64,000 bases of DNA. Source: Flavobacteriaceae bacterium. Lineage in GTDB: Bacteria > Bacteroidota > Bacteroidia > Flavobacteriales > Flavobacteriaceae. The translations under genes were made by a program, and so were the position numbers. How positions within the stretch are numbered: the stretch's first letter is position 1; the number at the start of each line of letters is the position of its first letter. The notes beneath the pieces are model-generated. The model did not search any database. It was not told the DNA's origin and was given only the letters and a program-made list of their open reading frames with translations. Shown here in pieces: positions 1,802 to 25,833 of this stretch. The DNA lies in NCBI GenBank assembly GCA_013001285.1, contig JABDMU010000044.1, forward strand, positions 124,001 through 188,000, given 5' to 3'.

Positions 1802-3241
1802 TTAATCAGATTGACTTTGTTTGTGTTTTTTCTTAAAAGACATTTTTAAAAATTTATTGATCATTGAGGGAATGACCATTACTCCAAATAATGTTCCTAT
1901 ATAATATGAAAATCCGTTTGTAAAATCACCTCTTAACAAGAACAATAAATGAACTGCAAAGTAGAATCCCATAATACGCTTTAAGGGGCTTTCGGAATTC
2001 AACCAATTCATAAGTTTTATGATAAAAAATGCAAGGGCGAAGGCCATTATAACTACACCTATAATTCCAAAATTTATATAGCCTTCGGCAACCAAAGGAT
2101 TAGACAAATTACTATAAACAAATCCATAATCTTCAATGACATAATCTCCAATAACCTCACCTGTTGAATTCGGTTTAGACGCCCAAATGCTCCTTGGTAC
2201 AAAAAACAGTAAACCGCTAAGTAATTGATAGCCCCAAGTAAGTCCGTTTTTGAATACATAGTCAATTGTTGCCATTACATTAGCAAATGCATCATAATGA
2301 AGCGTATTAAAAGTAGTTATGAAGCCTTCATCACGATAATGATCTAAAATCAGTTCTGGGTTGTTCATGATCTCGCCTATTGAGGCATCTAAATGGGTGA
2401 GCCCTGAGACCAATGGAAACAAAATGACCATTGAAAAAAAAAGGAATAAGAAAGACTTGGTATTTGAATTAAGCAATTTCGGTGAAAACAAAAACAACAG
2501 TGTAATGTAAATAGGACCAATTGAGTTTCTCTTTTCGGTAAGTGGGTTTTTAAACACTATAAACATGGCAAATAAGACCATTAACAAAAGGAAAACATAA
2601 ATGCTATTATTTGTTATGATCTTTTTTCTTTTTAAATAATCATGACCTAAAACAATAGCGCCCAAAGGCATCATGTACAATACTTTTTTCAGCATCAACT
2701 GGCTTGAAACTGAAATTTCATAAATTTTATTACTTCTCCAGTGGGATTCACTAATTAGATTCAGCCAGTAATCATAGCTCATGATAAAGGTGACTATCCC
2801 AACAATCAAGATCACTATTAAGGTAAGCGGCGTAAATTTATTTGGAGGTAAAGCAGGACGTTTTGTCTTTTTATAATATCGTTTTTTAAAGAATAAATAA
2901 CCGAAGAAAAAAATGATGTGAAAAAGGAGAATGATGATGTTTGCATAAGTAACAGCGCTTTCAGAGTATGGAAAGCTATTGGGGAACAAACTTGAATCTT
3001 CAGAAAAGGCCTTGATCTGAACCATTGGAGCCAGCAAAAAAAACAAATAGCCGAAGGTGATGTATGCTGATAAAAATGGCGAGTAATTGCGTTCGATCTT
3101 TAAATGATATAAAAATATCACTGTTAAAAATAGCCAGTTCAAAAAGAAGGAACCCCACACTAAGATATTTTCAAAAAATGAAAGGAATAGTGTTGTACTA
3201 ATTAACAAATAAACCAATATTATAATGTTATTTAGTTTCAT
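1802..3241 (-). CDS. Wzy-type oligosaccharide repeat-unit polymerase
   Basis: A 479-residue integral membrane protein with about twelve predicted transmembrane segments and a long loop (about residues 280-370). The loop ends in GLLFFVPRSIWASKPNSTGE, a stretch resembling the conserved Wxx-KP segment of the O-antigen polymerase (oligosaccharide repeat unit polymerase) family. It should join flipped repeat units at the outer face of the inner membrane. It lies directly downstream of the flippase gene, the normal Wzx-Wzy arrangement. Low sequence conservation is usual for Wzy, so the assignment rests on topology, motif and context. Confidence 0.75.
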   Translation of the reverse strand: MKLNNIIILVYLLISTTLFLSFFENILVWGSFFLNWLFLTVIFLYHLKIERNYSPFLSAYITFGYLFFLLAPMVQIKAFSEDSSLFPNSFPYSESAVTYANIIILLFHIIFFFGYLFFKKRYYKKTKRPALPPNKFTPLTLIVILIVGIVTFIMSYDYWLNLISESHWRSNKIYEISVSSQLMLKKVLYMMPLGAIVLGHDYLKRKKIITNNSIYVFLLLMVLFAMFIVFKNPLTEKRNSIGPIYITLLFLFSPKLLNSNTKSFLFLFFSMVILFPLVSGLTHLDASIGEIMNNPELILDHYRDEGFITTFNTLHYDAFANVMATIDYVFKNGLTWGYQLLSGLLFFVPRSIWASKPNSTGEVIGDYVIEDYGFVYSNLSNPLVAEGYINFGIIGVVIMAFALAFFIIKLMNWLNSESPLKRIMGFYFAVHLLFLLRGDFTNGFSYYIGTLFGVMVIPSMINKFLKMSFKKKHKQSQSD

Positions 3242-3279: not shown

Positions 3280-4599
3280 CTAGCTTTTAAAACTTCCGAA
3301 AATTGACAAATTAACTTTATCCTTTTTATAAGCGATAAATAATCCCACAAGATTCCACATAGTAAAGGAAAATGCTGTACTTATGGCAGCTCCTATCATT
3401 TCATATTTCGGGATAAGCACTAAATTCATCACAATGTTAATCACCAATGCGATTAATAGCACTTTTTGAAACAAGTTTTGACGACCTGTCATGTTCAGAT
3501 ATAATCCAACCGGGCCACAAAGGGCGTTTATGATCTGTCCGAATAGTATGATATAAAGCGCTTGTTGTGCTAAAATATAATTGCTTCCGAAAAATGAAAG
3601 AATATAGTTTGAAAAAATAATAAGGAACAAAATTAATGGGATGGTAAGTATCACATTTAAAGTTGTTGCCTTTTTTATAACCTGTCTTAAATTTGACATT
3701 TCATCGGCAAAGAACAATTTTGAAATTTGAGGCGCTATTGTCGCATTTATCGAGGTCAAAATTATCCCAACTACCGCAGATATCTTTATGGCAATGCCGT
3801 AATACGCCACAGTTTTAAAAGAAAAGAACTTCTCTAATACGTAGATATCAAAACTTTGCATTATCAATAATGAGATCAAGCTAAAAGACATGGGAAAGGA
3901 TACTTTCAATATTTCCTTATAGCTGATATTATATGCATCCTTAACGGTTTTCAATCGGCGCATTTTGAAAACAATTAAAAATGTTGAATAGGCCGATAGC
4001 AACAAAAAAGATATAATAAATGCCTCTAACAAATAGTCAATGGCATTAAAATATACAAGTGCCAAAACAAATATGAGCAAAAGCCCAAATCTACCAACAT
4101 TTCTCAAAGCCTCAGAAGTATATAAGAGATCTAAGGCTCTAATAACCTCCAAGTTTAATAAGGTTAGTGTAAATGGAAACAGCACTATAAAGACCTTATT
4201 CAGAACAAATGCTACATCCTCTTCTTGAAAATACGCAATTTGAAAGACCTGAGACACAAGCAAATAGATCCCAAAAAACAAGAGAAACATTGCCGAAAGT
4301 AATTTGATCTTTTTCTTATAAAGGCTGACAATTCTATTGAATTCTCCTTTGGCATCCAAGCGTCCAGAAAATTGTAAAAAGGACGTGTTCATCCCAAGAA
4401 GGGTTATGGCACCTAATAAAATTATTGTGGAGTTAAAATAGTTATACTGACCAACAAGTTCTTCTCTGGCATTGTTGGTGATGATTAGAAGAACAGCGAT
4501 TTGAAGAATAGCTCCTAAAACCCTTAAAACAAGTACATTCAGACTTTTTTTAATCACAGAGTCTTTGAGTGAATGAACAAGTTTATAAATTAATTTCAT
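3280..4599 (-). CDS. Wzx-type oligosaccharide flippase (MOP superfamily)
   Basis: A 439-residue protein with 12-14 hydrophobic segments. The N-terminal half has the spacing of the polysaccharide_synt family (for example GQYNYFNSTIILLGAITLLG, with polar residues such as SFLQFSGR between helices). The C-terminal half includes the GPVGLYLNMTGRQ segment common in Wzx/MATE-like flippases. It should translocate undecaprenyl-PP-linked repeat units across the inner membrane. It sits between the sulfotransferase (17 bp upstream) and the polymerase (38 bp downstream). Confidence 0.88.
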   Translation of the reverse strand: MKLIYKLVHSLKDSVIKKSLNVLVLRVLGAILQIAVLLIITNNAREELVGQYNYFNSTIILLGAITLLGMNTSFLQFSGRLDAKGEFNRIVSLYKKKIKLLSAMFLLFFGIYLLVSQVFQIAYFQEEDVAFVLNKVFIVLFPFTLTLLNLEVIRALDLLYTSEALRNVGRFGLLLIFVLALVYFNAIDYLLEAFIISFLLLSAYSTFLIVFKMRRLKTVKDAYNISYKEILKVSFPMSFSLISLLIMQSFDIYVLEKFFSFKTVAYYGIAIKISAVVGIILTSINATIAPQISKLFFADEMSNLRQVIKKATTLNVILTIPLILFLIIFSNYILSFFGSNYILAQQALYIILFGQIINALCGPVGLYLNMTGRQNLFQKVLLIALVINIVMNLVLIPKYEMIGAAISTAFSFTMWNLVGLFIAYKKDKVNLSIFGSFKS

Positions 4600-4616: not shown

Positions 4617-5441
4617 CTACCATTTAAGGTCGCTTTCATAATTCATATCGATAAGCATCTGACCTGCATACTTTTTAAAAACTTCCTTAGCCTCATCGTT
4701 AAAGTAATTTTTCCAATCGCCTGAAATACCCTTTCTTAAAAAGCTATTGGTGTTTTCATCTCCTGGTTTCCTTTTTGTTTGGTTTTCAAAAGAATATGTG
4801 TTCACTACCTTTTTTAAATGTACTGGATCAACATTGATCTGAGGAACAGCCGCTTTTAATAATTTTTGAATTTCTCCATAGGTATCCTTTAACATGTCTT
4901 CATACTTTATGAGTGTGATGTTTTTTTGGTTATTCATAGCGGTCTGCCATTTTTCGTTAAAGTCCTTCCAATTTCCAGGATGATTGAAAAATACAAATTT
5001 CGATGGGTTGTCCTCAAATAAAAATTCGATATATCTGGCCAAATTGTTTTCAATATCCGAATAGTCTTTAAACTTTAATTTATTCCGATAGTAACTAACC
5101 AATTTGGGGTCCTTTTTGTTCTTATCGTTCCAGACTAAATGGTGAAAATAAGAGGAGACCATAATGTCTCGACCATCTCTTAATAACCAGATTATATGTT
5201 TGTTCTTATGAATTATAAATTTAGGCTGATAATGGCTATGATAAACAGCTCTTTTTAAAATTGGATATTTGTTTCTTGGAAATGGAAGTTCGAGACTTCC
5301 TGAAACCAGCTGGGCTAACCAAGTTCCCCCTGATTTAGGATATTCAACAATTAAAACGGAATCATTAATATGAGTCACAGAATTAATATAGGCCAACCTC
5401 GTGGCGTGTTCAAATTTCCCTAATATCTGTTTTACTTTCAT
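4617..5441 (-). CDS. PAPS-dependent sulfotransferase
   Basis: A 274-residue cytosolic protein with the complete sulfotransferase signature. The 5'-phosphosulfate loop is YPKSGGTWL (residues 34-42). The 3'-phosphate motif is RDGRDIMVSSYFHH (88-101). The C-terminal PAPS-contact motif is GISGDWKNY (238-246). It transfers sulfate from PAPS to a hydroxyl. Because it lies between CotH and wzx in a polysaccharide run that also encodes PAPS synthesis (cysDNC) and PAP removal (cysQ), the likely acceptor is the glycan repeat unit before flipping (inference). A lipid or other acceptor is possible. Confidence 0.9.
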   Translation of the reverse strand: MKVKQILGKFEHATRLAYINSVTHINDSVLIVEYPKSGGTWLAQLVSGSLELPFPRNKYPILKRAVYHSHYQPKFIIHKNKHIIWLLRDGRDIMVSSYFHHLVWNDKNKKDPKLVSYYRNKLKFKDYSDIENNLARYIEFLFEDNPSKFVFFNHPGNWKDFNEKWQTAMNNQKNITLIKYEDMLKDTYGEIQKLLKAAVPQINVDPVHLKKVVNTYSFENQTKRKPGDENTNSFLRKGISGDWKNYFNDEAKEVFKKYAGQMLIDMNYESDLKW

Positions 5442-5476: not shown

Positions 5477-7330
5477 TTAATTTTCCTTTATTTGAAGGCT
5501 TCTTGGATCTACATTAATCTCTACTTTTTGAGATGTAGAACCTTCCCAGTTTAAGGCTTTTTTAGAGGCATCGGTTGGCCCAAAAATAAAATTGACCTTA
5601 TTTAAATTTGATTTAGCTTGCAATGTACACAAATACCATTCACCATCTGCCTTTTTAATGCTTGCTTTCACATTTGAAAATTGGCCCTGATTAAAAGTTT
5701 CTTTTAATTTTCCCGAACTCAGATCAAAAATTGCATCAGCTCTATTTGGATATATCCCTTGAAGTCGCATTCCCATTAAACCCCCTTGCTTTCCTTTTTT
5801 GACCTTTATGGAAACTGTATTAGTGCTATTAAAATTAACATCTATATTTCCTATGCGCACAAATCCAGAATTGGTTGTTGTCGTTCTCTTGATAGTAACA
5901 ACTGTTGCTTTATTTTCGTTTGAATTATTGCCCACAAATTCCACACCATTCGGATTCCAATTCGTACGATTAGTAAGATCAATTTTAGTTTTATTTGAAG
6001 CATTTGCCGCCTGTGTTGAATCAAGGGCAACTTCTAAGGTTTTTAGGTTGTTTAAATTGAATTCATGTTTCAATATTTCCAATTCTGATCGCATAATATT
6101 TTGGTTAAACCTTAAATTTTCCATATCTAAAAAACTTCCTCTAAATTCACGTTTCAATTCAGTCGTTATTTCTTCAATTTCACTTTGATTCATTTTTAGT
6201 AATTGATCTAAATAGTCAGGAGATGCAACTTTGTTCAATGCGTGGGCTAAGGCTTTAAAATAGCTTGTGTCGCGTTCCTTCCCAGGATATACGAAATGTC
6301 TAAACTCGGTTAATTTAACCCCCGAATTACCATCAAAAGAAATAGGCTCAAGTTTAGATGTTATGGGGTTATAATAGTAACGAACATTTATTAAATATGT
6401 GCCGTGAATGGCTCCAAATAAATTCATAAGTGCCGTATCCATAGCAAGCTTTTCAACATCAAAGGCATCGCTTATATTGATGTTATTTGAACGAAGGTCT
6501 TCCAACAAGTTCTTCGCGATCTTAAAATAATTAGTCATGGTGGTATCAGCCAAAACTTTACTCTCAGAAAATGGAATTATCGGATATTTTACCTTCGAAA
6601 TCAAATCATAATTCATAAAATCATTATAATTCAATCCGAAATCATCAGCAATGGCCTTACTTTTGCGCACCTCTGCCCACCAATAATCTTCAGAAAATTT
6701 TATGATAACACTTTCCTTTCTGCCATTGCTTTCAATGGTCCGCTTATCAAAGGTTTCTTCAATAGCGTAAATGCCAACATCCTTATTAAGATAATTCTTA
6801 TGGTCCATTTTGACATGGATCTTGCCTTCAACAAATCCGTATCTCAGACCCATTAAACCTTCCTTCTTCATGGCACGATGATATAGCCACTCATTCAAAT
6901 AACGCCTTGTACTAGGGTGGTGTAGCGAGAATTTCCGCATCCCTAATATGGTTTTATCATCTTTAAGTTTTATACGAAAAGACCATTTATCTTCTTCAAG
7001 ATGGATTGTCCAATCGCCTTTTAGTCTAACTTCGGCATTGTAATCATTCCCGTTAAAAGTAATTGTAGCAGGCACAAAATCTGAATCTTCAGCTTCAAGA
7101 ATCCCTACGCTTACGGCCTTATTCCTTTTCTTTTTTAATTTTCTATAAGCCTTTTCGTTAAGGCTGATTTGAACAAGATCAAGTGTTGTTGTTTGCTCTG
7201 TTAAAGGCGTAATGGGATACTTCGAGGCCTTCTTTTTGCTCGTTGTTTGAAGCAGCCAAAGCATCCCGGCCAAAATAACCAGGATGAAAAGAAAAAGAAA
7301 TGGGAACTTATTTGAAGATTTTACCCGCAT
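5477..7330 (-). CDS. CotH-family kinase-like protein, membrane anchored
   Basis: A 617-residue protein with an N-terminal membrane anchor (about residues 9-29) followed by a CotH domain (about 95-345). The family pattern AEVRLKGDW...WSFRIKLK is followed by MRKFSLHHPSTRRYLNEWLY and the late strand LEPISFDGNSG. The C-terminal ~150 residues look like an extra beta-rich domain. CotH proteins of spore-formers are atypical protein kinases. The usual acidic pair near the WD-x-D position reads FDGN here, so activity is uncertain. Start: a TTG three bases upstream is in frame, but the ATG at 7330 is preferred. It is 6 bp after DUF4956, in the recurrent CotH/VTC/DUF4956 grouping. Confidence 0.85.
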   Translation of the reverse strand: MRVKSSNKFPFLFLFILVILAGMLWLLQTTSKKKASKYPITPLTEQTTTLDLVQISLNEKAYRKLKKKRNKAVSVGILEAEDSDFVPATITFNGNDYNAEVRLKGDWTIHLEEDKWSFRIKLKDDKTILGMRKFSLHHPSTRRYLNEWLYHRAMKKEGLMGLRYGFVEGKIHVKMDHKNYLNKDVGIYAIEETFDKRTIESNGRKESVIIKFSEDYWWAEVRKSKAIADDFGLNYNDFMNYDLISKVKYPIIPFSESKVLADTTMTNYFKIAKNLLEDLRSNNINISDAFDVEKLAMDTALMNLFGAIHGTYLINVRYYYNPITSKLEPISFDGNSGVKLTEFRHFVYPGKERDTSYFKALAHALNKVASPDYLDQLLKMNQSEIEEITTELKREFRGSFLDMENLRFNQNIMRSELEILKHEFNLNNLKTLEVALDSTQAANASNKTKIDLTNRTNWNPNGVEFVGNNSNENKATVVTIKRTTTTNSGFVRIGNIDVNFNSTNTVSIKVKKGKQGGLMGMRLQGIYPNRADAIFDLSSGKLKETFNQGQFSNVKASIKKADGEWYLCTLQAKSNLNKVNFIFGPTDASKKALNWEGSTSQKVEINVDPRSLQIKEN

Positions 7331-7336
7331 CAATAA

Positions 7337-8014
7337 TTAATAGTTTTCTAAAAAGCTAAATTGAATGTTACCCAATGACTTAAGCTCATTTTTTGCATTA
7401 ATAATATTTTCAAAATTATCGAATTCAACATTTAAGGTTAATTCTGTTGTGTCTCCCGTTTCATCTAGTCGACGAAGATCAATTTTTGAACAATGCTTTT
7501 TTAATAAGTCCAAGATTTTGTTTTCATCAAGATCTGATTTTGTTGTATTCGTAATTGATAGGATCAAATTTTGTTGTACTGCACTTTTTACAGCATTCAT
7601 GTTTTGAATGACGATATATAAAATTATAACCACTGCACCTACCAGGGTTACTAAACGTTGATTTGCGCCCATTCCAAGGCCTAAAGCTATGGCCACAAAA
7701 AAGTAAACTAACTCTTCGGGTTCTTTAATTGCTGTTCTAAATCTCACAATAGAAAGTGCTCCCACCAAACCTAAGGAAAGCGCCAGAGAGGATTTTACAA
7801 TGGAAATCACCAGCATTACCGTCACCGCTATAAGCACAAACGTTTGCATGAGCTTTTTCCGATTAGACAAGGAATTACCATACTTAGAATAAATAAGACC
7901 CATGATATAGGCTAAAACAATAGTGATTAAAATATTGATAAAGAAATCGACTATTGAAGATTCACTAGAGCCAAACTGATTGGCAAGGTCGGTTAAAAAG
8001 GATTGTTCTTGCAT
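7337..8014 (-). CDS. DUF4956 family membrane protein
   Basis: A 225-residue protein with four hydrophobic helices in the first ~140 residues. The conserved segment LGLVGALSIVRFRTAIKEPE is the hallmark of DUF4956. A soluble C-terminal ferredoxin-like tail (about 150-225) follows. The RFRTAIK stretch is charged and sits between membrane helices. The family has no known function. It often neighbours VTC-domain and CotH genes, as here (11 bp after the VTC gene, 6 bp before cotH), so it may be the membrane partner of that module (inference). Confidence 0.9.
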   Translation of the reverse strand: MQEQSFLTDLANQFGSSESSIVDFFINILITIVLAYIMGLIYSKYGNSLSNRKKLMQTFVLIAVTVMLVISIVKSSLALSLGLVGALSIVRFRTAIKEPEELVYFFVAIALGLGMGANQRLVTLVGAVVIILYIVIQNMNAVKSAVQQNLILSITNTTKSDLDENKILDLLKKHCSKIDLRRLDETGDTTELTLNVEFDNFENIINAKNELKSLGNIQFSFLENY

Positions 8015-8025
8015 TGTTGTTTAAG

Positions 8026-8781
8026 TTATTGTGGAAATTGTTTTATCGTATTTACGCCATTGACGTATTTTGAGTTTTTATTTAATCTGAATGGAAACAT
8101 GGTAGATATTTGATTTGCCATATCATCATCTTCCAAAGCATATTTAAGTTCTACTATTTTATTTGGATCTGTTTCAGGTTGCCTTTTAAAATTATTAAAT
8201 CGCTTATCGATCCTATGGTAAAGTAAGCTGTAATCAAGTGTAACCCTATACTTATTGTTGGCCGACAAAAAGTAGCGTCTTGAATACGAGTTTAATAAGG
8301 TTGGTGTTACCATTTTTACAGACTCTAAAATGGAAGCTGGTAAATCAGAAGCCTCAAAAATAGATTGTATATAGCTGTTTGTAAAATCATTATTTAAGGT
8401 GAAAGGCTTTAATTTATAGGACCATTTATCGCCAACCAATCCTTTTTTTATTTTTATTTCTAGTACAGGCTTTGCGATCTCACCAAATGTATCGCCGTAC
8501 CATCTGATTCTAATTTTTTTTCGGTTTGCCACACCTAAAACATTATCAAAATAATCGGTAAAGCCTAAGGTGTCAAAATAGATGTTATTGACCTGTCGTT
8601 CATGAAAAACTTCTCGAAACAAAAATCTGTTGGTATGCACCACATGCTCTATTTCCGTAAAACTATAACTATCAGGCACTGTGAATTTTCGCTCAAACCT
8701 GTAGTTATGCTTTTTTTCAATGAAATGAAAGCCATCTTCTTGAGACAGTTCTTTTAGCTGTGATTTTAATGCGTCTATCAT
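8026..8781 (-). CDS. VTC-domain polyphosphate polymerase-like protein
   Basis: A 251-residue soluble protein matching the VTC (vacuolar transporter chaperone) catalytic domain. It shows RFERKF (28-33), NNIYFDT (65-71), RKKIRIRWYG (87-96) and LEIKIKKG (107-114), the basic strands and acidic residues that line the tunnel in this triphosphate-tunnel fold. Eukaryotic Vtc4 makes polyphosphate from ATP. Bacterial homologues are annotated as polyphosphate polymerase domain proteins, mostly without biochemical proof. The ATG overlaps the stop of the upstream beta-helix gene (ATGA), which suggests coupled translation. Confidence 0.88.
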   Translation of the reverse strand: MIDALKSQLKELSQEDGFHFIEKKHNYRFERKFTVPDSYSFTEIEHVVHTNRFLFREVFHERQVNNIYFDTLGFTDYFDNVLGVANRKKIRIRWYGDTFGEIAKPVLEIKIKKGLVGDKWSYKLKPFTLNNDFTNSYIQSIFEASDLPASILESVKMVTPTLLNSYSRRYFLSANNKYRVTLDYSLLYHRIDKRFNNFKRQPETDPNKIVELKYALEDDDMANQISTMFPFRLNKNSKYVNGVNTIKQFPQ

Positions 8782-11375
8782 TGTTGCGAACCATTTCTTG
8801 TTTCCGAACTACTCACCCCAAATTCTACACCATACATTCGATCTTTAACATTTTGAGAGGTTTCTATTTTTTTGCCTTCGACCATTAGTCTTGAGGTGTT
8901 TTCGATCAAATATTTAGTTTCTACATCTTCTAATTCTAAGTCGATGACCGTAATACTTGATGGTCCGAACTCAGGTTTTTTCTGAAATGCAGTAAATGCT
9001 AACTTGGTGTTTTTAATGCTGATATTTCGAATGTGAACTACGGAAAGGTCCTTCCCCGCCACAGCAATTTCACTATCAAATATCTTTGTATTTCTTATAG
9101 TCATCTTACTATCTTCTCCTGCACTTAAACCCTTGTCGCCAGCATTATAAACCATTACATTTTTTATGGTGATGTCTGATCCTGATACGTCAATGGCATC
9201 ATTGCCAAGATTTCGAAAAGTACAATTAATGATCTCTCCATTGACAAAATCACCATCAAAGGCATCCGATTGGGTGTCAGAGATGGTACATTGGTTCATC
9301 GTAAAGTTCGTGCGGATGATATTTAATGCGTCTTCGCAATGATTGTTTGTAATCGTGACATTAGAAAGTTGTACAGGCGATTCATAAAATGAAACCGCTC
9401 CAGTCACATTCCACGCACCGTGTTTCGGATTAGTCAAGCCATCAAAGGTTACAAAATTAAGAGTTGATTTTGTTTTGGCGCTTAAAACGATCAAACCTTC
9501 ACCCTTTTTATCTTCGGAATAGATCTTTATTGGATTTTGTTTTGTTCCTCTAAATTCAATTTGAGCGTAGGAAATAATTTTACCGCCTTTTACCAAATTC
9601 ACTTGTGCGCCCGGCCTTAGTAGAAACTTATAGTTCTGAGGAATGATAAGTGCTGATGCTATAGTCACAGAATCCTTTTTAAAGGAAATGGTTTTGTTGA
9701 TTTCATTGACCACAATTTCCTTATGATCATTAATAGCTTCCTTAGTTCTAAAAATGTCTTTTGTGATCATTTCCTTCTCCTGGAATGGAATTATACTTTG
9801 ATACTGAAACTCATCAGAGCCAAAGGTCCTGTAGGTTATAAAAAGTTCACTCATGTGCTTATGCACCAAGAACCCTGTCACTTTTTTCTTTTTGCTGACG
9901 AATAAATTTTCAAAGCTTCTTGGAAGGTCAATAGTAATTGTATCTCGATCTCCGTTTAAAATTTGACGTCTTGGGTTTAAAGAAATAATTTCCTTTTTTC
10001 GTTCATGATTCAGTCCGACTATTTCAACAGGATAATACGAATAATTTTCTATGCTCAAGGTCATTCTATCATCGCTCATTGAGATCAATTCAGCTTTGAT
10101 CGCAATCGATTGTTCAAGGTTTTTTTTAATCTTTAGCTGATTGACCTTTAAAAAGTCCAGGTTAAAAATATTATCCGGGTAATAACTATTGATCAGTTTT
10201 ATGTGATTTATGAGAGATTCATCTTCTTGAAGTTCTAATTTTAAATCTAAATTAGCATATGCCTTTAATCGCGACCCTGCATTTTGAATAAACTCAGGAT
10301 CTTGTGTTGGCATTCTGTCAACATATTTTGAAGTCTTTCCAACACAAGCATCGTAATGAAAAAAGGGCTCTAGTCGATTGGTTTCTTCGTTGAAAATAAA
10401 CAGTAATTTTTCATTTGAACATTCATCTGTAAACAGATTTAAAATACTTACAAAGTGAGCTAATTTATCGACATCGAATACAGCATTGAAGTCAATGTTT
10501 TTTTCTATGTATTGTTGAAATAGACTTTTCGCTTTATTTACTGAAGGCCCTTGATAAATGCATAAATCAATTAAGTTGTCTTCATGATTATTTATTGCCC
10601 TCCAGAACCTGCTAGTATTTTTAACTGTTACAATTGTAGCACTAGCATCCTTAATGAATTTCTCCTTTGTTTTTTTGATCTCAAATAGAGAGTCATTTAT
10701 TATCTTGTAATCATGATCTATAAATGTAATTTCCGCCTTCCTTAACAATGAATTCATGAATGGTCTATAAATATTGGGGATTTTTCGTTGCCCAGAAACA
10801 GTGGTCTTATTTTTTGTGATAGTTAACTTTGGGAAAGGGTTGGCTAAAGTAGTTTGCCAGGGCTTGAGTTTTTTATTTCTATGCACTTGCGTTACCGAAA
10901 GAGAATCCATGTCAATTAATGGCACCACAAACTTAAAGGCTCCATATTCAACGCCTGCGTGGTTATATATCTTCGCATTATTTACCAGATTGAATTGATA
11001 GCCTTTCCTGTTCTGTGGAAGTCTTTTCTTTTCTGAAGGATACACTTCAATTTTAAAATCATTACTCAATTCCTCTTTCTTGGGCTGTGCTATAAGAACA
11101 ATTAATTCTCTTTGAAAATTATTATCTATAAAAAAAGTAATGAATTTTTTGACTTCAAAACTGTCATTTTTCTTATTCTTAAATTTAAGTTCTTTTTGTT
11201 GTAGGGCCTCTAAATAGGCTTCTGGCATCGTTTGGCGGTAAGGATTTAATTCGGCCAGCTCAGTTAATGGAGGGTTATCATTTTTTAAAAAGAATATTGA
11301 AATAAACAATAATAGAATCGGCACACCTATTAGAAAGATGGAGGAAGATTTAATATGACTTCGATTATTGCTCAT
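8778..11375 (-). CDS. Membrane-anchored protein with degenerate CotH-like region and right-handed beta-helix
   Basis: An 865-residue protein with an N-terminal membrane anchor (about 12-31). Residues 297-347 (FDVDKLAHFVSILNLFTDEC, then ETNRLEPFFHYDACVGK) align by eye with the CotH core of the gene two positions downstream (DVEKLAMDTALMNLF, then ITSKLEPISFDGNSG). The N-terminal half is therefore a divergent CotH paralogue. Residues about 565-830 form a parallel right-handed beta-helix with repeated NDAIDVSGSDI-like turns, as in pectate-lyase or epimerase-type folds. It overlaps the VTC gene by 4 bp. Function is unknown; the beta-helix suggests glycan or surface binding in the periplasm (inference). 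Confidence 0.75.
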   Translation of the reverse strand: MSNNRSHIKSSSIFLIGVPILLLFISIFFLKNDNPPLTELAELNPYRQTMPEAYLEALQQKELKFKNKKNDSFEVKKFITFFIDNNFQRELIVLIAQPKKEELSNDFKIEVYPSEKKRLPQNRKGYQFNLVNNAKIYNHAGVEYGAFKFVVPLIDMDSLSVTQVHRNKKLKPWQTTLANPFPKLTITKNKTTVSGQRKIPNIYRPFMNSLLRKAEITFIDHDYKIINDSLFEIKKTKEKFIKDASATIVTVKNTSRFWRAINNHEDNLIDLCIYQGPSVNKAKSLFQQYIEKNIDFNAVFDVDKLAHFVSILNLFTDECSNEKLLFIFNEETNRLEPFFHYDACVGKTSKYVDRMPTQDPEFIQNAGSRLKAYANLDLKLELQEDESLINHIKLINSYYPDNIFNLDFLKVNQLKIKKNLEQSIAIKAELISMSDDRMTLSIENYSYYPVEIVGLNHERKKEIISLNPRRQILNGDRDTITIDLPRSFENLFVSKKKKVTGFLVHKHMSELFITYRTFGSDEFQYQSIIPFQEKEMITKDIFRTKEAINDHKEIVVNEINKTISFKKDSVTIASALIIPQNYKFLLRPGAQVNLVKGGKIISYAQIEFRGTKQNPIKIYSEDKKGEGLIVLSAKTKSTLNFVTFDGLTNPKHGAWNVTGAVSFYESPVQLSNVTITNNHCEDALNIIRTNFTMNQCTISDTQSDAFDGDFVNGEIINCTFRNLGNDAIDVSGSDITIKNVMVYNAGDKGLSAGEDSKMTIRNTKIFDSEIAVAGKDLSVVHIRNISIKNTKLAFTAFQKKPEFGPSSITVIDLELEDVETKYLIENTSRLMVEGKKIETSQNVKDRMYGVEFGVSSSETRNGSQQ

Positions 11376-11435
11376 TTTTACGGTTCTTTTAGAACGTCTA
11401 CAAATTTAAATATTTTAGTTTTTTTATGATATGAT

Positions 11436-12320
11436 CTAGTTGACGAAATTAGGATCGATATAATCCTTTAATTCACCCAGGCCATTTGGATCATCACCAT
11501 TTAAATGAATAAGTCTTAATTTAACTGAACCATCGGTAAAAACATCAGCAATAATGAGGTTGTCTCTTACGCCTCCACCCATTCCGGAGGCAATAAAACT
11601 TAAATTATCATAATTGTGATAGTAATATTCAATAATGTGATCCTTTTTCCTGTATTCTTTTGAAAAGGCACCAATATCTCCTGCAAAAAGATAAACTGGT
11701 TTATTTACACTTCTCAACAAGGGTTCTATTTTACTCCAAAAATTCGTGTTCTTGGCGCGCCCACTTGTTGCATTTGGAAATGGTTTTGAGAACTTTGTAG
11801 GGCTATACCAAAGTAAATGATGTGTGAAAATGAAAACATTATTAACATCATTGGTATCATTTCTTAAACTATTCTTTAAAAAGATAAGTTGATCGCCCGA
11901 TATGTTCCAATTATCAATATTTGAATCAAGAATTATAAAAAGGTCATTTTTAAAAATATACTTCTTATAAGATTCTCCAAAAAGATCTTTAAAATTTTTT
12001 AATCCTCCATCATGATTCCCTCTTGCAACCTCAACAGGAATTCCAATCTTTTCAATATCCTTAATAGCCTCAGGCCAATATTTTGGTTGCCAAACCACAT
12101 CACCCAGTAAAAAGCCTTTAGACATTTTTTCTTGCTTTTTTAAGAAGTCGATCTTATCCATAAATGGCGGGTGTAATCCTTGAAGATCGGTAGTGCCTTT
12201 ACCTTTTTCTAAAGAGCTGCCATATGTGTGACCGGCTACAAAAAAAGAGTAGGATTTCTTCGGCTCTTGATTGCAGCCTAACATCAAAGAAATACAAAAA
12301 ACGATACTTATTTTTCTCAT
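11436..12320 (-). CDS. Divergent calcineurin-like phosphoesterase lipoprotein
   Basis: A 294-residue protein with a lipoprotein signal (LMLGC, Cys16). The metallophosphatase blocks are recognisable but altered: AGHTYG (29-34) in place of DxH, GDVVW (73-77) in place of GDxxD, intact GNHDG (101-105), FTHH (165-168), and AGDIG (213-217) in place of GHxH. Only part of the usual binuclear metal site is kept, so it may bind one metal or act on a special substrate. It is translationally coupled (ATGA overlap) to the upstream pyrophosphatase lipoprotein gene. Periplasmic or outer-membrane attachment is expected. Confidence 0.75.
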   Translation of the reverse strand: MRKISIVFCISLMLGCNQEPKKSYSFFVAGHTYGSSLEKGKGTTDLQGLHPPFMDKIDFLKKQEKMSKGFLLGDVVWQPKYWPEAIKDIEKIGIPVEVARGNHDGGLKNFKDLFGESYKKYIFKNDLFIILDSNIDNWNISGDQLIFLKNSLRNDTNDVNNVFIFTHHLLWYSPTKFSKPFPNATSGRAKNTNFWSKIEPLLRSVNKPVYLFAGDIGAFSKEYRKKDHIIEYYYHNYDNLSFIASGMGGGVRDNLIIADVFTDGSVKLRLIHLNGDDPNGLGELKDYIDPNFVN

Positions 12321-12919
12321 TTCACAATATTATTATTGATCTCAATTAAGGCTTCCGTTTCATCTGCCCATCCTTCTATTTTAGTCACATCATCTGAATT
12401 ATAATTCGTGAACCATAATTCAATAATAGTCATGATCTCAGGATAATTCTTGCTTAGTTCATCAAAATTTTTAGCTTTCATGACCTGAGTGTTGACATTT
12501 GCGAGGTTGGCAATGATTTTGTAATCTAATTCCCCGTTATCAATAAGCTTCAACATCCCAATTGGAATGATCTCAACTAGGCTTCCTATTGGCAAAGATT
12601 CCGATAAGATCAAAACATCTAGAGCATCACCATCACCGCCTTGTTTTGGATCAGAAAATGTTGAAGGAATAAACCCGTAATTGCCAACATAAGGCAAAAA
12701 GTCAATCCGTCTTTCCTTGCCATTTTTTTTGTCAATCTCAAAAGATTGAGATTGAACATTAAATTCATATTTTTTATTTGTTCCGGCTGGTATTTCAACT
12801 ACAGCATGCAATATATTGTCCTTAGAAAAGGCAGGTGTTTTATAGTGGTTTATTGTATCCTTACACGATAGCAAAACCAAGACTGTGCCTGCCAAAATTG
12901 CCTTGTTGAATGCTTTCAA
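12317..12919 (-). CDS. Family I inorganic pyrophosphatase, predicted lipoprotein
   Basis: A 200-residue protein with the soluble family I pyrophosphatase fold: VEIPAGTNKKYEF (about 41-53), YGFIPST (81-87) and the metal site DGDALDV (96-102). The last keeps D96, D98 and D101 but has Ala where the usual signature has Pro. Unusually, it starts with a lipoprotein signal peptide (VLLSC, Cys19), so it should act outside the cytoplasm. It lies 1 bp after an unknown lipoprotein and overlaps the phosphoesterase gene. Cytosolic removal of PPi made by CysDN would need a non-lipidated form, so the predicted location is puzzling. Confidence 0.87.
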   Translation of the reverse strand: MKAFNKAILAGTVLVLLSCKDTINHYKTPAFSKDNILHAVVEIPAGTNKKYEFNVQSQSFEIDKKNGKERRIDFLPYVGNYGFIPSTFSDPKQGGDGDALDVLILSESLPIGSLVEIIPIGMLKLIDNGELDYKIIANLANVNTQVMKAKNFDELSKNYPEIMTIIELWFTNYNSDDVTKIEGWADETEALIEINNNIVK

Positions 12920-12920
12920 A

Positions 12921-13445
12921 TTACTGCATTAATGAATTGATGTGTTTTCTTTTTAAAATAATTGTAGGAATGTGTTTGCCATCTATTCTCTTTGTTTTGA
13001 TTGTTTGGCTCACCGAATCGAAGTCTACATATTTATTCGTTGAAAAGTACTCTGATAAATTTGAGCCATCAACCGCAAGGCTATTCTGTCCATATGAAAT
13101 TTGTACTGCACTAATTTCTATTGACTTTTCTTCCTTATTTCCCAAATTAATATGCAATGTCTTAGAAATGTTATTAGCACCAAATGATGCTGTCATCTCG
13201 TCGCTACCTGAAGTAGGCGCTACTTTTTCAATAATGTGAATGTTTTTACGTTGAAATTCATCGACTTCAACATTATTCAGCATCAGCCTGAATTCATCTG
13301 CTTTATCGGTCTTGAAATTCATGGCAATTTTTAATTCTTTAGCCGTGTCCTCCACAACTTCAATAGGTTGTACTTTTTCAGTTGTATTTGGTTCATTTTT
13401 ACACGCTAAAGTAGCAATGAGTAGTATAACGATTACTTTTTTCAT
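12921..13445 (-). CDS. Hypothetical lipoprotein
   Basis: A 174-residue protein with a clear lipobox (ATLAC, Cys15). The mature part is beta-rich, beginning with an acidic linker and ending in a basic strand (TIILKRKHI). No known family was recognised. It is 15 bp downstream of cysN and 1 bp upstream of the pyrophosphatase gene, the first of three consecutive lipoproteins inserted between the sulfate-activation genes and the CotH/VTC module. A role linked to one of those is inferred from position only. Confidence 0.7.
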   Translation of the reverse strand: MKKVIVILLIATLACKNEPNTTEKVQPIEVVEDTAKELKIAMNFKTDKADEFRLMLNNVEVDEFQRKNIHIIEKVAPTSGSDEMTASFGANNISKTLHINLGNKEEKSIEISAVQISYGQNSLAVDGSNLSEYFSTNKYVDFDSVSQTIKTKRIDGKHIPTIILKRKHINSLMQ

Positions 13446-13460
13446 TTTTATTTTTTATTG

Positions 13461-14714
13461 TTAAACAATCATTCCTGCCGCAACCGTTTCGTTGGTTGTG
13501 TCGTCAATAAGAATGATACTTCCTGTTGTTCTATTTTCTCTATATGAATCGATCATTAATGGTTTAGTTGTGCGAATCTTAACCTTAGAAATATCATTCA
13601 TATTTAGTTCTTTGTCCTCTGTATTTCTTTTAAAGGTATTAATGTCAAACTTGTACACGATCTCCTTTATCATTGCTTTTTGAGTATTGGAGGTATGCTG
13701 AATACTATATTTCGCTCTTGGTCTTGCTGGGTTGTCATGTAACCAGCAGAGCATCATTTCAATATCTTGAGTGGCCTCAGGTTTGTTATTCGATCTTACG
13801 ATCATATCGCCACGGCTAATATCGATATCGTCCTCTAATGTCATCGAGATTGACATAGGAGCATAGGCTACGTCTAATTCCTCGTCAAAAGTATCAATGC
13901 TTTTTATTTTGGAAGTAAAACCTGATGGAAGCACAGTTACCTCATCACCAACTCTAAAGATCCCGCTAGAAACGCGTCCAGCATAACCTCTATAATCGCG
14001 ATGGGATTCGTTTTGTGGACGGAGTACCGTTTGCACAGGAAATCGGCCATCAATTTTATTGATGTCACTACTTATATGCATTGTTTCTAAAGTATGCAAT
14101 AATGGTGCGCCTTGATACCAATTCATTTTACTTGATCTATTCACTACATTATCACCTTCTAAAGCACTAATTGGAATAAAACGTATGTCTTTTACAAGTA
14201 ATTTGGAAGAGAATTCCTCAAATTGATCGATGACAACATTATAGGCTTTTTCCTGATAGTCTACAAGATCCATTTTATTAATACACACAATAATGTGAGG
14301 TATTTGTAATAAAGAAGCAATAAAGGCGTGCCGTCTTGTTTGTTCTATTACTCCATGACGTGCATCAACTAAAATAATTGCAGCATTTGCAGTGGAGGCG
14401 CCCGTGACCATGTTCCGTGTATATTGAATATGACCAGGAGTATCCGCTATTATAAATTTGCGTTTGGGTGTTGTGAAATAGCGATAGGCCACATCAATTG
14501 TAATGCCCTGCTCTCTTTCAGCCCTCAATCCATCGGTGAATAAAGCCAGATCAACACCATCATGTCCTTTCTTTCGACTGGTATTTTCTATGGCTTCCAG
14601 TTGGTCTTCAAAGATTGATTTAGAATCGTAAAGGAGCCGACCGATCAAGGTGCTTTTACCGTCATCAACGCTTCCTGCCGTTGTAAATCGTAATAATTGA
14701 TTATTGTCTAACAT
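13461..14714 (-). CDS. cysN: Sulfate adenylyltransferase, GTPase subunit 1
   Basis: A 417-residue EF-Tu-like GTPase with P-loop TAGSVDDGKSTLIGRLL (about 11-27), switch region GITIDVAYRYF, DTPGH and NKMD (G4), followed by two beta-barrel domains. It energises CysD-catalysed formation of APS from ATP and sulfate. The length fits stand-alone CysN without a fused APS kinase, which is encoded separately as cysC. It follows cysD by 18 bp. No sulfite-producing reductase genes are nearby, which points to PAPS for sulfation. Confidence 0.96.
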   Translation of the reverse strand: MLDNNQLLRFTTAGSVDDGKSTLIGRLLYDSKSIFEDQLEAIENTSRKKGHDGVDLALFTDGLRAEREQGITIDVAYRYFTTPKRKFIIADTPGHIQYTRNMVTGASTANAAIILVDARHGVIEQTRRHAFIASLLQIPHIIVCINKMDLVDYQEKAYNVVIDQFEEFSSKLLVKDIRFIPISALEGDNVVNRSSKMNWYQGAPLLHTLETMHISSDINKIDGRFPVQTVLRPQNESHRDYRGYAGRVSSGIFRVGDEVTVLPSGFTSKIKSIDTFDEELDVAYAPMSISMTLEDDIDISRGDMIVRSNNKPEATQDIEMMLCWLHDNPARPRAKYSIQHTSNTQKAMIKEIVYKFDINTFKRNTEDKELNMNDISKVKIRTTKPLMIDSYRENRTTGSIILIDDTTNETVAAGMIV

Positions 14715-14732
14715 TTTTGTCGTTTTAAGATC

Positions 14733-15638
14733 CTAAAAATAGCCTTGACGCTTTCTGTCTTCCATCGCTGTTTCAGAGCGCTTGTCATCACTTCTGTTAC
14801 CGCGTTCAGTTTGTCGCATTGCTGAAACTTCCTGCGTAATTTTTTCTAAAGTGTCTGCATTAGATTCAATGCCTCCTGTAATAGTGATATCACCTAAGGT
14901 TCTAAAACGAATTTTTTTAGTAACTATTTCCTCATTGTCTTCTAAAACTAAAAATTCAGAATATGGGATCCAGGAATTGCTTCGCCACACGACCTTTCGT
15001 TCATGTGCATAATACAAGGATGGTATTTCTATCTTTTCTCGCTTTATATAATTCCAGACATCCATTTCTGTCCAATTACTTATTGGGAAAGCTCTAAAGT
15101 GTTCGCCTTCAAAGTGATTTCCGTTGAATAAGTTCCAGAGTTCAGGCCGTTGATTTTTAGGATCCCACTGTCCGAAATCATCGCGATGGCTAAAAAAACG
15201 TTCTTTAGCTCTTGCCTTTTCTTCGTCACGTCTGCCTCCGCCAATGGCACAATCAACATTATTGGATTCAATAGCGTCCAAAAGTGTTGTAATTTGAAGA
15301 GCGTTTCGCGTTGCGTTCTTTCCTTTTTCTTCAGCAACTCTTCCATCATCAATGGACTCTTGAACTGAACCAACAATAAGGTTTACCCCTAGATCTTTTA
15401 TAAGATCATCTCTGAATTTTATAGTTTCAGGAAAATTATGTCCTGTGTCAACATGCATTAAGGCAAATGGAATTCGTGCTGGATAAAAGGCCTTCTTAGC
15501 TAAATGAGTGATGACGATAGAGTCTTTACCTCCAGAAAACAGAATAACTGGGTTCTGAAATTGGGCCCAAACCTCTCTTAAAATGAAGATGGCCTCACTT
15601 TCTAATTCATCTAAGTAGTTTAAGTAATATTTACTCAT
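14733..15638 (-). CDS. cysD: Sulfate adenylyltransferase subunit 2
   Basis: A 301-residue PAPS-reductase-fold (N-type ATP pyrophosphatase) protein. The PP-loop is LFSGGKDSIVITHLA, and LMHVDTGHNFPET, AIGGGRRDEEKARAKER and the C-terminal DDKRSETAMEDRKRQGYF tail follow, as in CysD. With CysN it converts sulfate and ATP to APS and PPi. Its start overlaps the end of cysC by 8 bp, so the two are co-translated. It is part of a sulfation-oriented cassette. Confidence 0.96.
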   Translation of the reverse strand: MSKYYLNYLDELESEAIFILREVWAQFQNPVILFSGGKDSIVITHLAKKAFYPARIPFALMHVDTGHNFPETIKFRDDLIKDLGVNLIVGSVQESIDDGRVAEEKGKNATRNALQITTLLDAIESNNVDCAIGGGRRDEEKARAKERFFSHRDDFGQWDPKNQRPELWNLFNGNHFEGEHFRAFPISNWTEMDVWNYIKREKIEIPSLYYAHERKVVWRSNSWIPYSEFLVLEDNEEIVTKKIRFRTLGDITITGGIESNADTLEKITQEVSAMRQTERGNRSDDKRSETAMEDRKRQGYF

Positions 15639-16233
15639 TTTTGAGGTTTAATCTTGGTTCAATAAATTTTAATATTCGCGCAACCGCTTCTTCTACAGAC
15701 TCGGTTTCCGTTTTAATTTCAACATCAGGATTAATCGGCGCTTCATAAGGGGCAGATATACCCGTCATGTTTTTAATTTCACCTGTACGCGCTTTTTGAT
15801 ATAATCCTTTTACATCACGACGCTCACATTCACCAATACTTGTGTTTACGAAAATCTCGACAAAGTTAACATCTTTAACGATATTGCGTATGTTATCGCG
15901 ATCTTTTTTATAAGGCGAAACAAAGGCTGCTAGTACAACCAACCCCGCATCAATCATAAGATTAGAGATCTCGGCAATTCGACGAATGTTCTCTGTTCTG
16001 TCTTCAGGTGAGAATGATAGATCTTTATTTATTCCCTTTCGTACATTATCGCCATCGAGAGAATAGGTTTTAATGCCTTGACGTTGTAGCTCAATTTCAA
16101 CAGCATTTGCAATGGTTGATTTGCCAGATCCTGAGAGTCCCGTAAACCATAGTAAAAATGAGTTGTGCTGATTGGCTGCCCGCCTGTCGTCAACAGAGGT
16201 CTTATATGTATGAGGCTTTATATTTTTTTGCAT
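15631..16233 (-). CDS. cysC: Adenylylsulfate (APS) kinase
   Basis: A 200-residue kinase with Walker A motif GLSGSGKST (about 33-41), the LDGDNVRKGINKDLSFSPED segment, and the VSPYKKDRDNIR lid, all typical of CysC. It phosphorylates APS at the 3' position to give PAPS, the donor for the sulfotransferase about 10 kb downstream. It directly abuts the DUF2061 gene upstream (no gap) and overlaps cysD downstream. Confidence 0.96.
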   Translation of the reverse strand: MQKNIKPHTYKTSVDDRRAANQHNSFLLWFTGLSGSGKSTIANAVEIELQRQGIKTYSLDGDNVRKGINKDLSFSPEDRTENIRRIAEISNLMIDAGLVVLAAFVSPYKKDRDNIRNIVKDVNFVEIFVNTSIGECERRDVKGLYQKARTGEIKNMTGISAPYEAPINPDVEIKTETESVEEAVARILKFIEPRLNLKNE

Positions 16234-25804: not shown

Positions 25805-25833
25805 GCAAAGATACATTAATTCACTAAATTCAA
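25805..25833 (-). promoter_or_regulatory. Possible promoter before the DUF6909-like gene
   Basis: A minus-strand TATCTTTG (25805-25812) matches the TAnnTTTG -7 element and a TTG (25831-25833) lies 18 bp upstream. It sits in the 18-bp gap and the end of the GH3 gene. The leader would be very short, which favours the second ATG at 25788. Confidence 0.45.

Follow-up and report, generated by a model that had tools for sequence, protein, structure and literature searches.

The window analysed here, a stretch of 64,000 nucleotides (nt) from a Flavobacteriaceae genome (assembly of 2.88 Mb in 88 contigs), holds a closely packed run of genes for a VTC-domain protein of 251 amino acids (aa), a 225-aa DUF4956 membrane protein, a 618-aa CotH-type protein and an 865-aa beta-helix protein with a CotH remnant (Table 1). 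Judged from sequence, VTC and DUF4956 proteins are a conserved pair, with CotH kinases as the usual third partner. The conserved unit thus outlined comprises a predicted polymerase inside the cell, a membrane partner and predicted exported families that deal with phosphate bonds. The trio itself is known in print as a set of pel accessory genes; what is added here, from homology searches, is that the set recurs across many phyla and in genomes with no PelG match.

Recurrence of the gene set

An earlier note on this DNA (the original prediction) held that CotH, VTC and DUF4956 genes recur together in bacteria, and suggested a survey of their co-occurrence across genomes. This survey was carried out. 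Among 196 genomes of the window's order, VTC was detected in 53 and DUF4956 in 63, and in 50 of the 53 VTC-bearing genomes the two genes are no more than 500 nt apart, as counted by eye from the listings. The three exceptions are a genome with the two genes on separate contigs (G136), one with VTC at a contig end (G169) and one with a truncated VTC match, probably again at a contig end (G170).

Beyond the order, genome contigs were scanned with a DUF4956 alignment, which returned at least 587 stretches, 571 of them confirmed; the DUF4956 loci discussed in the following are the best 80 of the 571. Their record titles cover Bacteroidota groups, Planctomycetota, Verrucomicrobia, Anaerolineae and Chloroflexi, Myxococcota, Calditrichaeota, Nitrospina, Thermoanaerobaculia, Campylobacterota, Marinamargulisbacteria and Pelagibacteraceae single cells, where single taxon assignments may be wrong because many of the records are metagenome-assembled genomes. 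Flanks of at least 4.5 kb on either side of DUF4956 are available in 45 of the 80 loci. Within this distance VTC is found in 41, CotH in 36 and both in 32, with the caveat that the hidden Markov models behind the VTC, CotH and accessory counts were derived iteratively from these very loci, which biases their E-values upward. The genes do co-occur, far more often than by chance, and the claimed recurrence is borne out, parts of it being in print already. An analogous scan of viral contigs confirmed one locus, so there is no sign of a viral module, and a viral origin was dismissed.

Complete sets, defined by three genes of sufficient length inside 7.5 kb, number 49 (48 loci and the window). Written with the initials of DUF4956, CotH and VTC, their gene orders are DCV (25), CDV (14), DVC (6) and VDC (2), and two sets have mixed strands. 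This variable order is what speaks for chance neighbours, i.e. genes brought side by side in a gene-rich polysaccharide island without a joint function. The adjacency counts given above contradict this explanation, as does the correlation of VTC with DUF4956 distances over the 49 sets (Mantel r 0.45, with 1 of 2000 permutations as high), and it was rejected on the adjacency counts as highly improbable. The two Mantel values that involve CotH are lower, at 0.22 (37 of 2000) and 0.25 (12 of 2000).

Two individual loci may be mentioned here. At G070:C1:422546-423077 the VTC reading is broken by several stop codons, with an unbroken DUF4956 beside it, and L090:9216-20653 carries two opposed VTC/DUF4956/CotH-type sets on one contig over about 11.5 kb.

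The VTC protein and its membrane partner

The 251-aa protein scores 94.1 bits against PF09359 (cut-off 23). As this is its sole match above cut-off, SPX and fused transmembrane (TM) domains are considered absent; a signal or TM stretch was not seen in the translation by eye. A 23-row alignment of VTC relatives contains 24 invariant columns, including R28, K32, R91, R93, E108, K110, K119, R168, R179, D183, E211, K213 and K238. Searched against the PDB, the corresponding profile retrieved 10 distinct sequences at E ≤1, all of them Vtc2, Vtc3 or Vtc4, the best match being yeast Vtc4 (3g3q, E 4.8e-12). R91 and R93, invariant in 23 of 23 rows, fall on the RLRWYG motif of Vtc4 and correspond to R264 and R266, a numbering that was counted along the printed alignment; the counterpart of E426 lies outside that alignment. 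Excerpts of PMC9911596 describe the inactivation of yeast VTC by substitution of R264, R266 and E426. The window protein is predicted to be a polyphosphate polymerase that makes polyphosphate from ATP. In the excerpted text of a 2026 paper, VTC4 is placed under microbial eukarya (PMC13318637). The genome has its own PPK1-type gene elsewhere (PF02503, 6e-48), and the VTC protein is therefore not needed for storage polyphosphate.

Alternatively, the VTC-like protein could be a tunnel-fold phosphohydrolase or a nucleotide-processing enzyme, with DUF4956 moving something else. The tunnel fold does serve enzymes of diverse reactions (PMC4641920, in excerpt), and an assay of a bacterial VTC protein was not found in the open-access PMC literature (preprints excluded). 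This assignment is quite unlikely in view of the Pfam and PDB searches, in which the window protein matches VTC and not CYTH, and of the invariance of both arginines that were mutated to inactivate Vtc4.

The DUF4956 protein matches PF16316 with 78.3 bits (cut-off 30.6). Its relatives share a near-invariant block, VKSSxALSLGLVGALSIxRxRxxxKxPEE, in a 25-row alignment; this invariance is partly selected, as the patterns of the scan that picked the loci lie within that block. The AlphaFold model (mean pLDDT 86, pTM 0.67) shows five long predicted helices (residues 19-45, 52-72, 75-91, 99-116 and 120-144) and, after these, an ACT-like domain. In VIA-align, residues 145-225 match ACT/ferredoxin-like and ribosomal-S6-type folds at Z values of about 9 to 10.6. 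Foldseek with the whole model returned nothing at E ≤0.001, and the VIA-align rows start only at about residue 141, so that the fold matches leave out the membrane part. The model and VIA-align together give the DUF4956 protein the arrangement of MgtC membrane proteins, a TM block and then a C-terminal ACT-like domain. The window protein itself has no match to PF02308 (MgtC), and hhalign of DUF4956 against MgtC gave a probability of 3%, with an alignment of 4 rows on the MgtC side. We know of no link between MgtC and polyphosphate.

Longer relatives bear on the orientation of the DUF4956 protein in the membrane. Five proteins of 448-527 aa, from Anaerolineae-type records, carry extra N-terminal sequence, with a signal-like start in four of the five. 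L077, the only long form subjected to family tests, has a 3-keto-disaccharide-hydrolase-type domain in front of DUF4956 (PF06439, 3.4e-9). The signal-like start and exported-type front domain of L077, combined with a cytosolic ACT domain, point to an N-out, C-in topology, in which the ACT-like domain is predicted to face the cytosol. For SIR_1592 of Streptococcus intermedius, passages of PMC12345266 predict an intracellular ACT domain. In the yeast VTC channel the lining consists of basic TM1 residues, according to excerpts of PMC9911596. R91, R93 and K97 of DUF4956 are invariant and K74 nearly so; located near the ends of the third helix, these basic residues may line a pore.

The two CotH-type proteins

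The original prediction had labelled both proteins flanking the VTC/DUF4956 pair as CotH-like. PF08757, the Pfam CotH family, has no match in either of them nor anywhere in the whole genome, and the 618-aa protein is consequently named a divergent CotH-fold kinase rather than a member of Pfam CotH. A 22-row CotH profile, which leaves out six relatives that match, or are taken to be, Pfam CotH, finds a single protein in the PDB, Bacillus CotH (5jd9, E 3.6e-17). The model of the 618-aa protein, built on an alignment that included some Pfam-positive CotH rows, superimposes on 5jd9 over 321 residues (Z 26.2, rmsd 3.3, 17% identity), and other kinases score well below (PI4K Z 10.8, Fam20C Z 9.9). 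The model is confident in the kinase part, residues ~50-425, with values below 50 for residues 426-618.

A profile built without the window sequences gives 373 bits across the kinase domain of the 618-aa protein. For the 865-aa protein it gives 26 bits, confined to residues 277-347, a remnant of the C-lobe. The kinase domain of the latter is thus incomplete, and in the CotH alignment this protein shows no RLKGD-like motif. Of the two CotH labels, one accordingly stands for the fold, the 618-aa protein being a divergent CotH-fold kinase with predicted activity, and the other is reduced to the C-lobe remnant.

In 19 of the 25 loci listed, kinase and helix profiles are matched by one open reading frame (ORF), the helix profile over at least 90% of its length; it should be noted that part of the CotH C-lobe is covered by the helix profile as well, and that Pfam Beta_helix has matches in L082 and L111 but none in L101 or L116. 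As read from these profiles, two proteins in the window replace the usual CotH plus beta-helix protein, namely a kinase that lacks the helix and a helix protein in which only part of the kinase is left. Both have a hydrophobic N-terminal anchor (in the 865-aa protein, hydrophobic windows that start at residues 6-15) and no lipobox by eye, and the kinase should therefore face the periplasm. The C-terminus of the 618-aa protein (residues 456-591) matches the phage head-spike domain NF048003 (1.3e-9), and in a single-sequence PDB search the top matches are phage structural proteins, again in the C-terminal part (E 0.0041). This phage-spike-like domain is possibly glycan-binding. The closest CotH relatives come from Dokdonia, Pareuzebyella and Bacteroidota. 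In L062, DUF4956/VTC have a second CotH beside them, this one Pfam-positive (1.4e-47), as well as a protein of the O-antigen ligase family (11398-13167 and 13218-14534).

Exported phosphatases and envelope partners

Family scans covered 181 of 202 operon-mates of the DUF4956 loci, the 21 omitted being near-duplicates (L069, L129) and long, overlapping or odd ORFs. Among the matches listed are 7 metallophosphoesterases and 5 inorganic pyrophosphatases, along with glycosyltransferases and sugar epimerases. Metallophosphoesterase relatives occur in 20 of the 80 loci, 18 of these 20 on the DUF4956 strand, and in 0 of the 30 loci L031-L060, which mostly represent other DUF4956 subfamilies. Pyrophosphatase relatives are present in 6 of the 80 loci; five of them share the strand of DUF4956, and those whose starts were read begin with a signal- or lipobox-like stretch. 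Exported pyrophosphatase and metallophosphoesterase genes, as predicted from such starts and family matches, are recurrent accessories of a minority of loci.

The window pyrophosphatase scores 108.1 bits against PF00719 (cut-off 23.5), and E42, K50, E52, R70, Y81, D96, D98, D101, D127, D132 and K134 are identical in 7 of 7 relatives; these 11 residues are of catalytic type. Within 36 genomes, PF00719 gave 26 matches, 6 of them inside DUF4956 loci against about 0.1 expected by area. These genomes were chosen mainly for long flanks, and the short L086, L094, L096 and L121 were added after an accessory gene had been seen; without L094, the added genome with an in-locus pyrophosphatase, the count is 5 of 24 matches. 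A separate VTC search located five of the six in-locus pyrophosphatases no more than 3 kb from VTC, the sixth being at a distance of about 12 kb. The independent count rests on PF00719 because the genome-wide control for the metallophosphoesterase is circular for the 10 non-window rows of its profile. In Dokdonia pacifica (L101:15057-16812), sensor-kinase-like and LytTR-type-regulator-like genes, named from translation starts only, lie between VTC and the pyrophosphatase.

Other DUF4956 subfamilies have partners of the cell envelope. A DUF2490-type cluster adjoins DUF4956 in 20 of the 30 loci L031-L060, and the one member tested matches PF10677 (1.4e-27) and OMP_b-brl (4.6e-7); DUF2490 is an outer-membrane-barrel-like family. 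HlyD-like genes were found in five loci of other subfamilies (L031, L032, L051, L059 and L060). They precede VTC in L031, L032 and L051, where the L051 protein reaches HlyD_D23 at 2.2e-5, below cut-off, and the L031 protein has no Pfam match at E 1. In L059 and L060 the HlyD-like gene stands beside DUF4956 in a genome with no VTC match, with HlyD_3 above cut-off in L059 and Biotin_lipoyl, not HlyD_3, above cut-off in L060. These DUF2490 and HlyD-like partners would fit export. A further DUF4956 subfamily without VTC adjoins a protein with a signal-like start (L056:8054-9931, L055:10498-12381, L057, L058); the neighbour tested, that of L056, contains a PPDK_N domain (pyruvate phosphate dikinase, ATP-binding; 1.5e-24) and is of phosphotransfer type and probably exported.

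Comparison with known systems

According to excerpts of PMC7112168, pel loci of streptococci and clostridia carry accessory genes for CotH, a polyphosphate polymerase, DUF4956 and DUF4832, for which regulation via CotH is suggested. In a Clostridium perfringens locus described in part of PMC2879425, VTC and CotH accompany a "tubulin/FtsZ" protein which, from its size, would be DUF4956; SIR_1592 of S. intermedius, with TM plus ACT domain, would likewise be a DUF4956 protein. As excerpted from PMC12345266, loss of SIR_1592 raised Pel and loss of SIR_1594 (CotH) lowered it, and in one medium aggregation fell to less than half with either loss. The same 2025 text, in the part available, states that no such synteny was found outside Pel loci. 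In the present data a PelG match was obtained in 0 of 37 genomes with these loci (the window's included), PelG being the only Pel component sought and many of the assemblies being incomplete. VTC is present in all 37, and 32 of the 36 non-window genomes are among the complete sets. The module is therefore not tied to Pel, and for these 37 genomes a Pel link was rejected on the PelG result.

The window shares with the Gram-positive accessory genes (SIR_1594-1591) the three core families side by side, a secreted CotH, a TM protein with an ACT domain and an adjoining polysaccharide locus. It differs in the missing PelG match, in the exported pyrophosphatase and metallophosphoesterase, in the probable sulfated-glycan locus, and in a CotH that is generally joined to a beta-helix protein, or here replaced by one.

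The S. intermedius deletions speak for a regulatory module. CotH would phosphorylate an envelope or surface protein, DUF4956 would act MgtC-like on phosphate/ATP homeostasis and VTC would tune local polyphosphate, so that polysaccharide output is adjusted. Such a scheme is near to the suggestions of the Pel papers, agrees with the opposite Pel phenotypes of SIR_1592 and SIR_1594, and is compatible with the ACT-like domain on DUF4956 and the sub-threshold MgtC match of a relative. The neighbours of the module are, however, very different and 37 genomes have no PelG match, so it does not serve one polysaccharide, and the exported pyrophosphatase and metallophosphoesterase are left unexplained. 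We regard a regulatory module as rather improbable.

With the eukaryotic VTC complex (Vtc1/3/4; PMC9911596, excerpts) the window has in common the VTC tunnel domain with its catalytic arginine pair, and a polymerase paired with a membrane protein that bears conserved basic residues. Unlike that complex, SPX is absent, a fused TM domain was not found, the membrane partner is a different protein, MgtC-like in layout, and the direction would be outward. An acidocalcisomal pyrophosphatase is among the PDB matches listed. In eukaryotes, polyphosphatases and a pyrophosphatase act on the far side of the membrane from VTC. Finally, the 618-aa protein resembles the Bacillus spore-coat kinase CotH (5jd9/5jda) in fold, whereas its membrane anchor, its low identity and position below Pfam detection, and its place beside a polyphosphate-polymerase-like gene set it apart.

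A possible trans-envelope phosphorylation system

From sequence we infer polyphosphate synthesis, its passage through the membrane and its role as a donor. In the mechanism which we tentatively favour, and which we rate somewhat short of even, polyphosphate made in the cytosol would be passed across the inner membrane and used outside by the CotH kinase. The VTC protein would build the chain from ATP in the cytosol. DUF4956 would fill the role that the membrane portion has in the eukaryotic VTC complex, coupling synthesis to passage through the inner membrane, with its cytosolic ACT-like domain as a site of control. No ATP pool is expected outside the cytoplasm. Once exported to the periplasm or the cell surface, the chain would serve the CotH kinase as phosphate donor, for transfer to the glycan of this locus or to a protein bound to the glycan. 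The beta-helix protein would hold glycan or polymer, and the metallophosphoesterase and pyrophosphatase would trim leftover chains and pyrophosphate.

Generalised, DUF4956 would be the conduit of an extracytoplasmic phosphorylation for which many phyla, Pelagibacteraceae included, would employ exported polyphosphate in place of ATP; CotH would be the surface kinase that uses it, and the exported pyrophosphatase and metallophosphoesterase would close the cycle. In this breadth we consider the proposal somewhat unlikely. In excerpts of PMC7821199 the source of ATP for CotH, should it act after spore release, is termed unanswered. If polyphosphate is indeed the donor, one module would answer how glycans or proteins are phosphorylated outside the cytoplasm in the absence of ATP for many phyla, and would provide a second bacterial polyphosphate-polymerase family beside PPK. 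With the adjacency counts, and with cultured relatives that carry such a set, Dokdonia pacifica DSM 25597 (L101) and Pareuzebyella sediminis (L097), the donor idea is directly testable.

A number of observations weigh against this mechanism. With regard to gene content, VTC went unmatched in 12 of the 63 genomes with DUF4956 in the window's order, and VTC is absent within 4.5 kb in 4, and CotH in 9, of the 45 flank-complete loci. The accessory phosphatases are restricted to a minority of loci, as counted above, and the outer-membrane and HlyD-like partners were seen with other DUF4956 subfamilies, not in the window. With regard to the individual proteins, the link between DUF4956 and MgtC is sub-threshold (8.1e-5 for the relative L059, 23.4 bits against 31.4), and we know of no channel function of MgtC. 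At the alignment position that we take to be the metal-binding Asp of CotH, 22 of 28 rows carry D, five have E and one has G. The metallophosphoesterase family shows xGH in place of DxH, presumably the usual first motif, and its activity is uncertain for this reason. Known CotH runs on ATP in vitro according to excerpts of the literature. Activity or transport by any bacterial VTC or DUF4956 protein was not found in the open-access PMC literature (preprints excluded). Deletion of the polymerase SIR_1593 in S. intermedius caused no change reported in the excerpted PMC12345266. This silent deletion, the strongest of the contrary results, weakens a strict model in which VTC feeds CotH, since that model predicts an effect; a second polyphosphate source could mask it.

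A structural or chelating surface polyphosphate would be affected by the silent deletion as well. According to this proposal, VTC and DUF4956 would export a polymer of capsule or matrix that CotH and the phosphatases attach or remodel. It accounts for the same gene pairing and the exported phosphatases, and finds support in the many loci where helix and CotH form one protein (19 of 25 listed) and in glycan genes, both in the window and among the operon-mates of part of the loci. It does not account for a kinase fold being the most constant of the exported partners, and we consider it about as improbable as the regulatory module. The original prediction, that a VTC-made polymer, a DUF4956 partner and external CotH enzymes could form a polyphosphate or phosphoryl-transfer system on the cell surface, is strengthened in part, namely by the retained arginine pair, by exported phosphatases that travel along in part of the loci and by envelope partners in other DUF4956 subfamilies; the S. 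intermedius polymerase deletion speaks against it.

Locus layout and gene context

The four tightly spaced or overlapping ORFs of the module were recovered on the minus strand exactly where they had been reported (Table 1). In order of transcription, CysC, CysD and CysN type genes are followed by the small lipoprotein, pyrophosphatase, metallophosphoesterase, 865-aa, VTC, DUF4956 and 618-aa genes, and downstream of the latter by the sulfotransferase, the MatE/MurJ-type flippase and two polymerase-like proteins. Intergenic gaps in this minus-strand run are ≤60 nt, and two gene pairs, 865-aa/VTC and metallophosphoesterase/pyrophosphatase, overlap by 4 nt. The module therefore probably shares a single transcription unit with the sulfated-glycan locus, and the glycan made beside it is probably sulfated. 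The Cys labels, read from the translations, are putative.

Table 1 Genes of the module and of its surroundings in the window
Feature	Position	Strand	Basis
Beta-helix protein with CotH remnant, 865 aa	8778-11375	minus	PF13229 2.1e-7; N-terminal membrane anchor
VTC-domain protein, predicted polyphosphate polymerase, 251 aa	8026-8781	minus	PF09359 1.3e-26
DUF4956 membrane protein, 225 aa, MgtC-like layout	7337-8014	minus	PF16316 7.6e-22
Divergent CotH-fold kinase (predicted activity), 618 aa, N-terminal membrane anchor	5477-7333	minus	profile 373 bits; model Z 26.2 to 5jd9
Calcineurin-type metallophosphoesterase, predicted exported (lipobox-like start, by eye)	11436-12320	minus	PF00149 1.5e-5, 26 bits against cut-off 21.5
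Family I inorganic pyrophosphatase, predicted exported (lipobox-like start, by eye)	12317-12919	minus	PF00719 4.6e-31
Small lipoprotein-like protein	12921-13445	minus	no Pfam match at E 1; in same gene run
CysN, CysD, CysC type genes, sulfate activation to PAPS	13461-16233	minus	named from translations
Sulfotransferase	4617-5441	minus	PF00685 2.2e-22
MatE/MurJ-type flippase	3280-4599	minus	PF01554 1.6e-13
Repeat-unit polymerase-like protein	1802-3241	minus	TIGR04370 1.8e-6, below its cut-off
O-antigen ligase family protein	563-1798	minus	PF04932 2.3e-16

The flanking genes had been described as lipoproteins. Lipobox-like starts are indeed present, but two of these proteins are the metallophosphoesterase and the pyrophosphatase, which the original prediction had not linked to the module. 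The small lipoprotein was considered as a part of the module and dropped, as its relatives are absent from DUF4956 loci. Elsewhere in the window, a GH3-family protein (25816-27333; PF03321, 2.7e-42) lies between a DUF6909 protein and an M23 peptidase.

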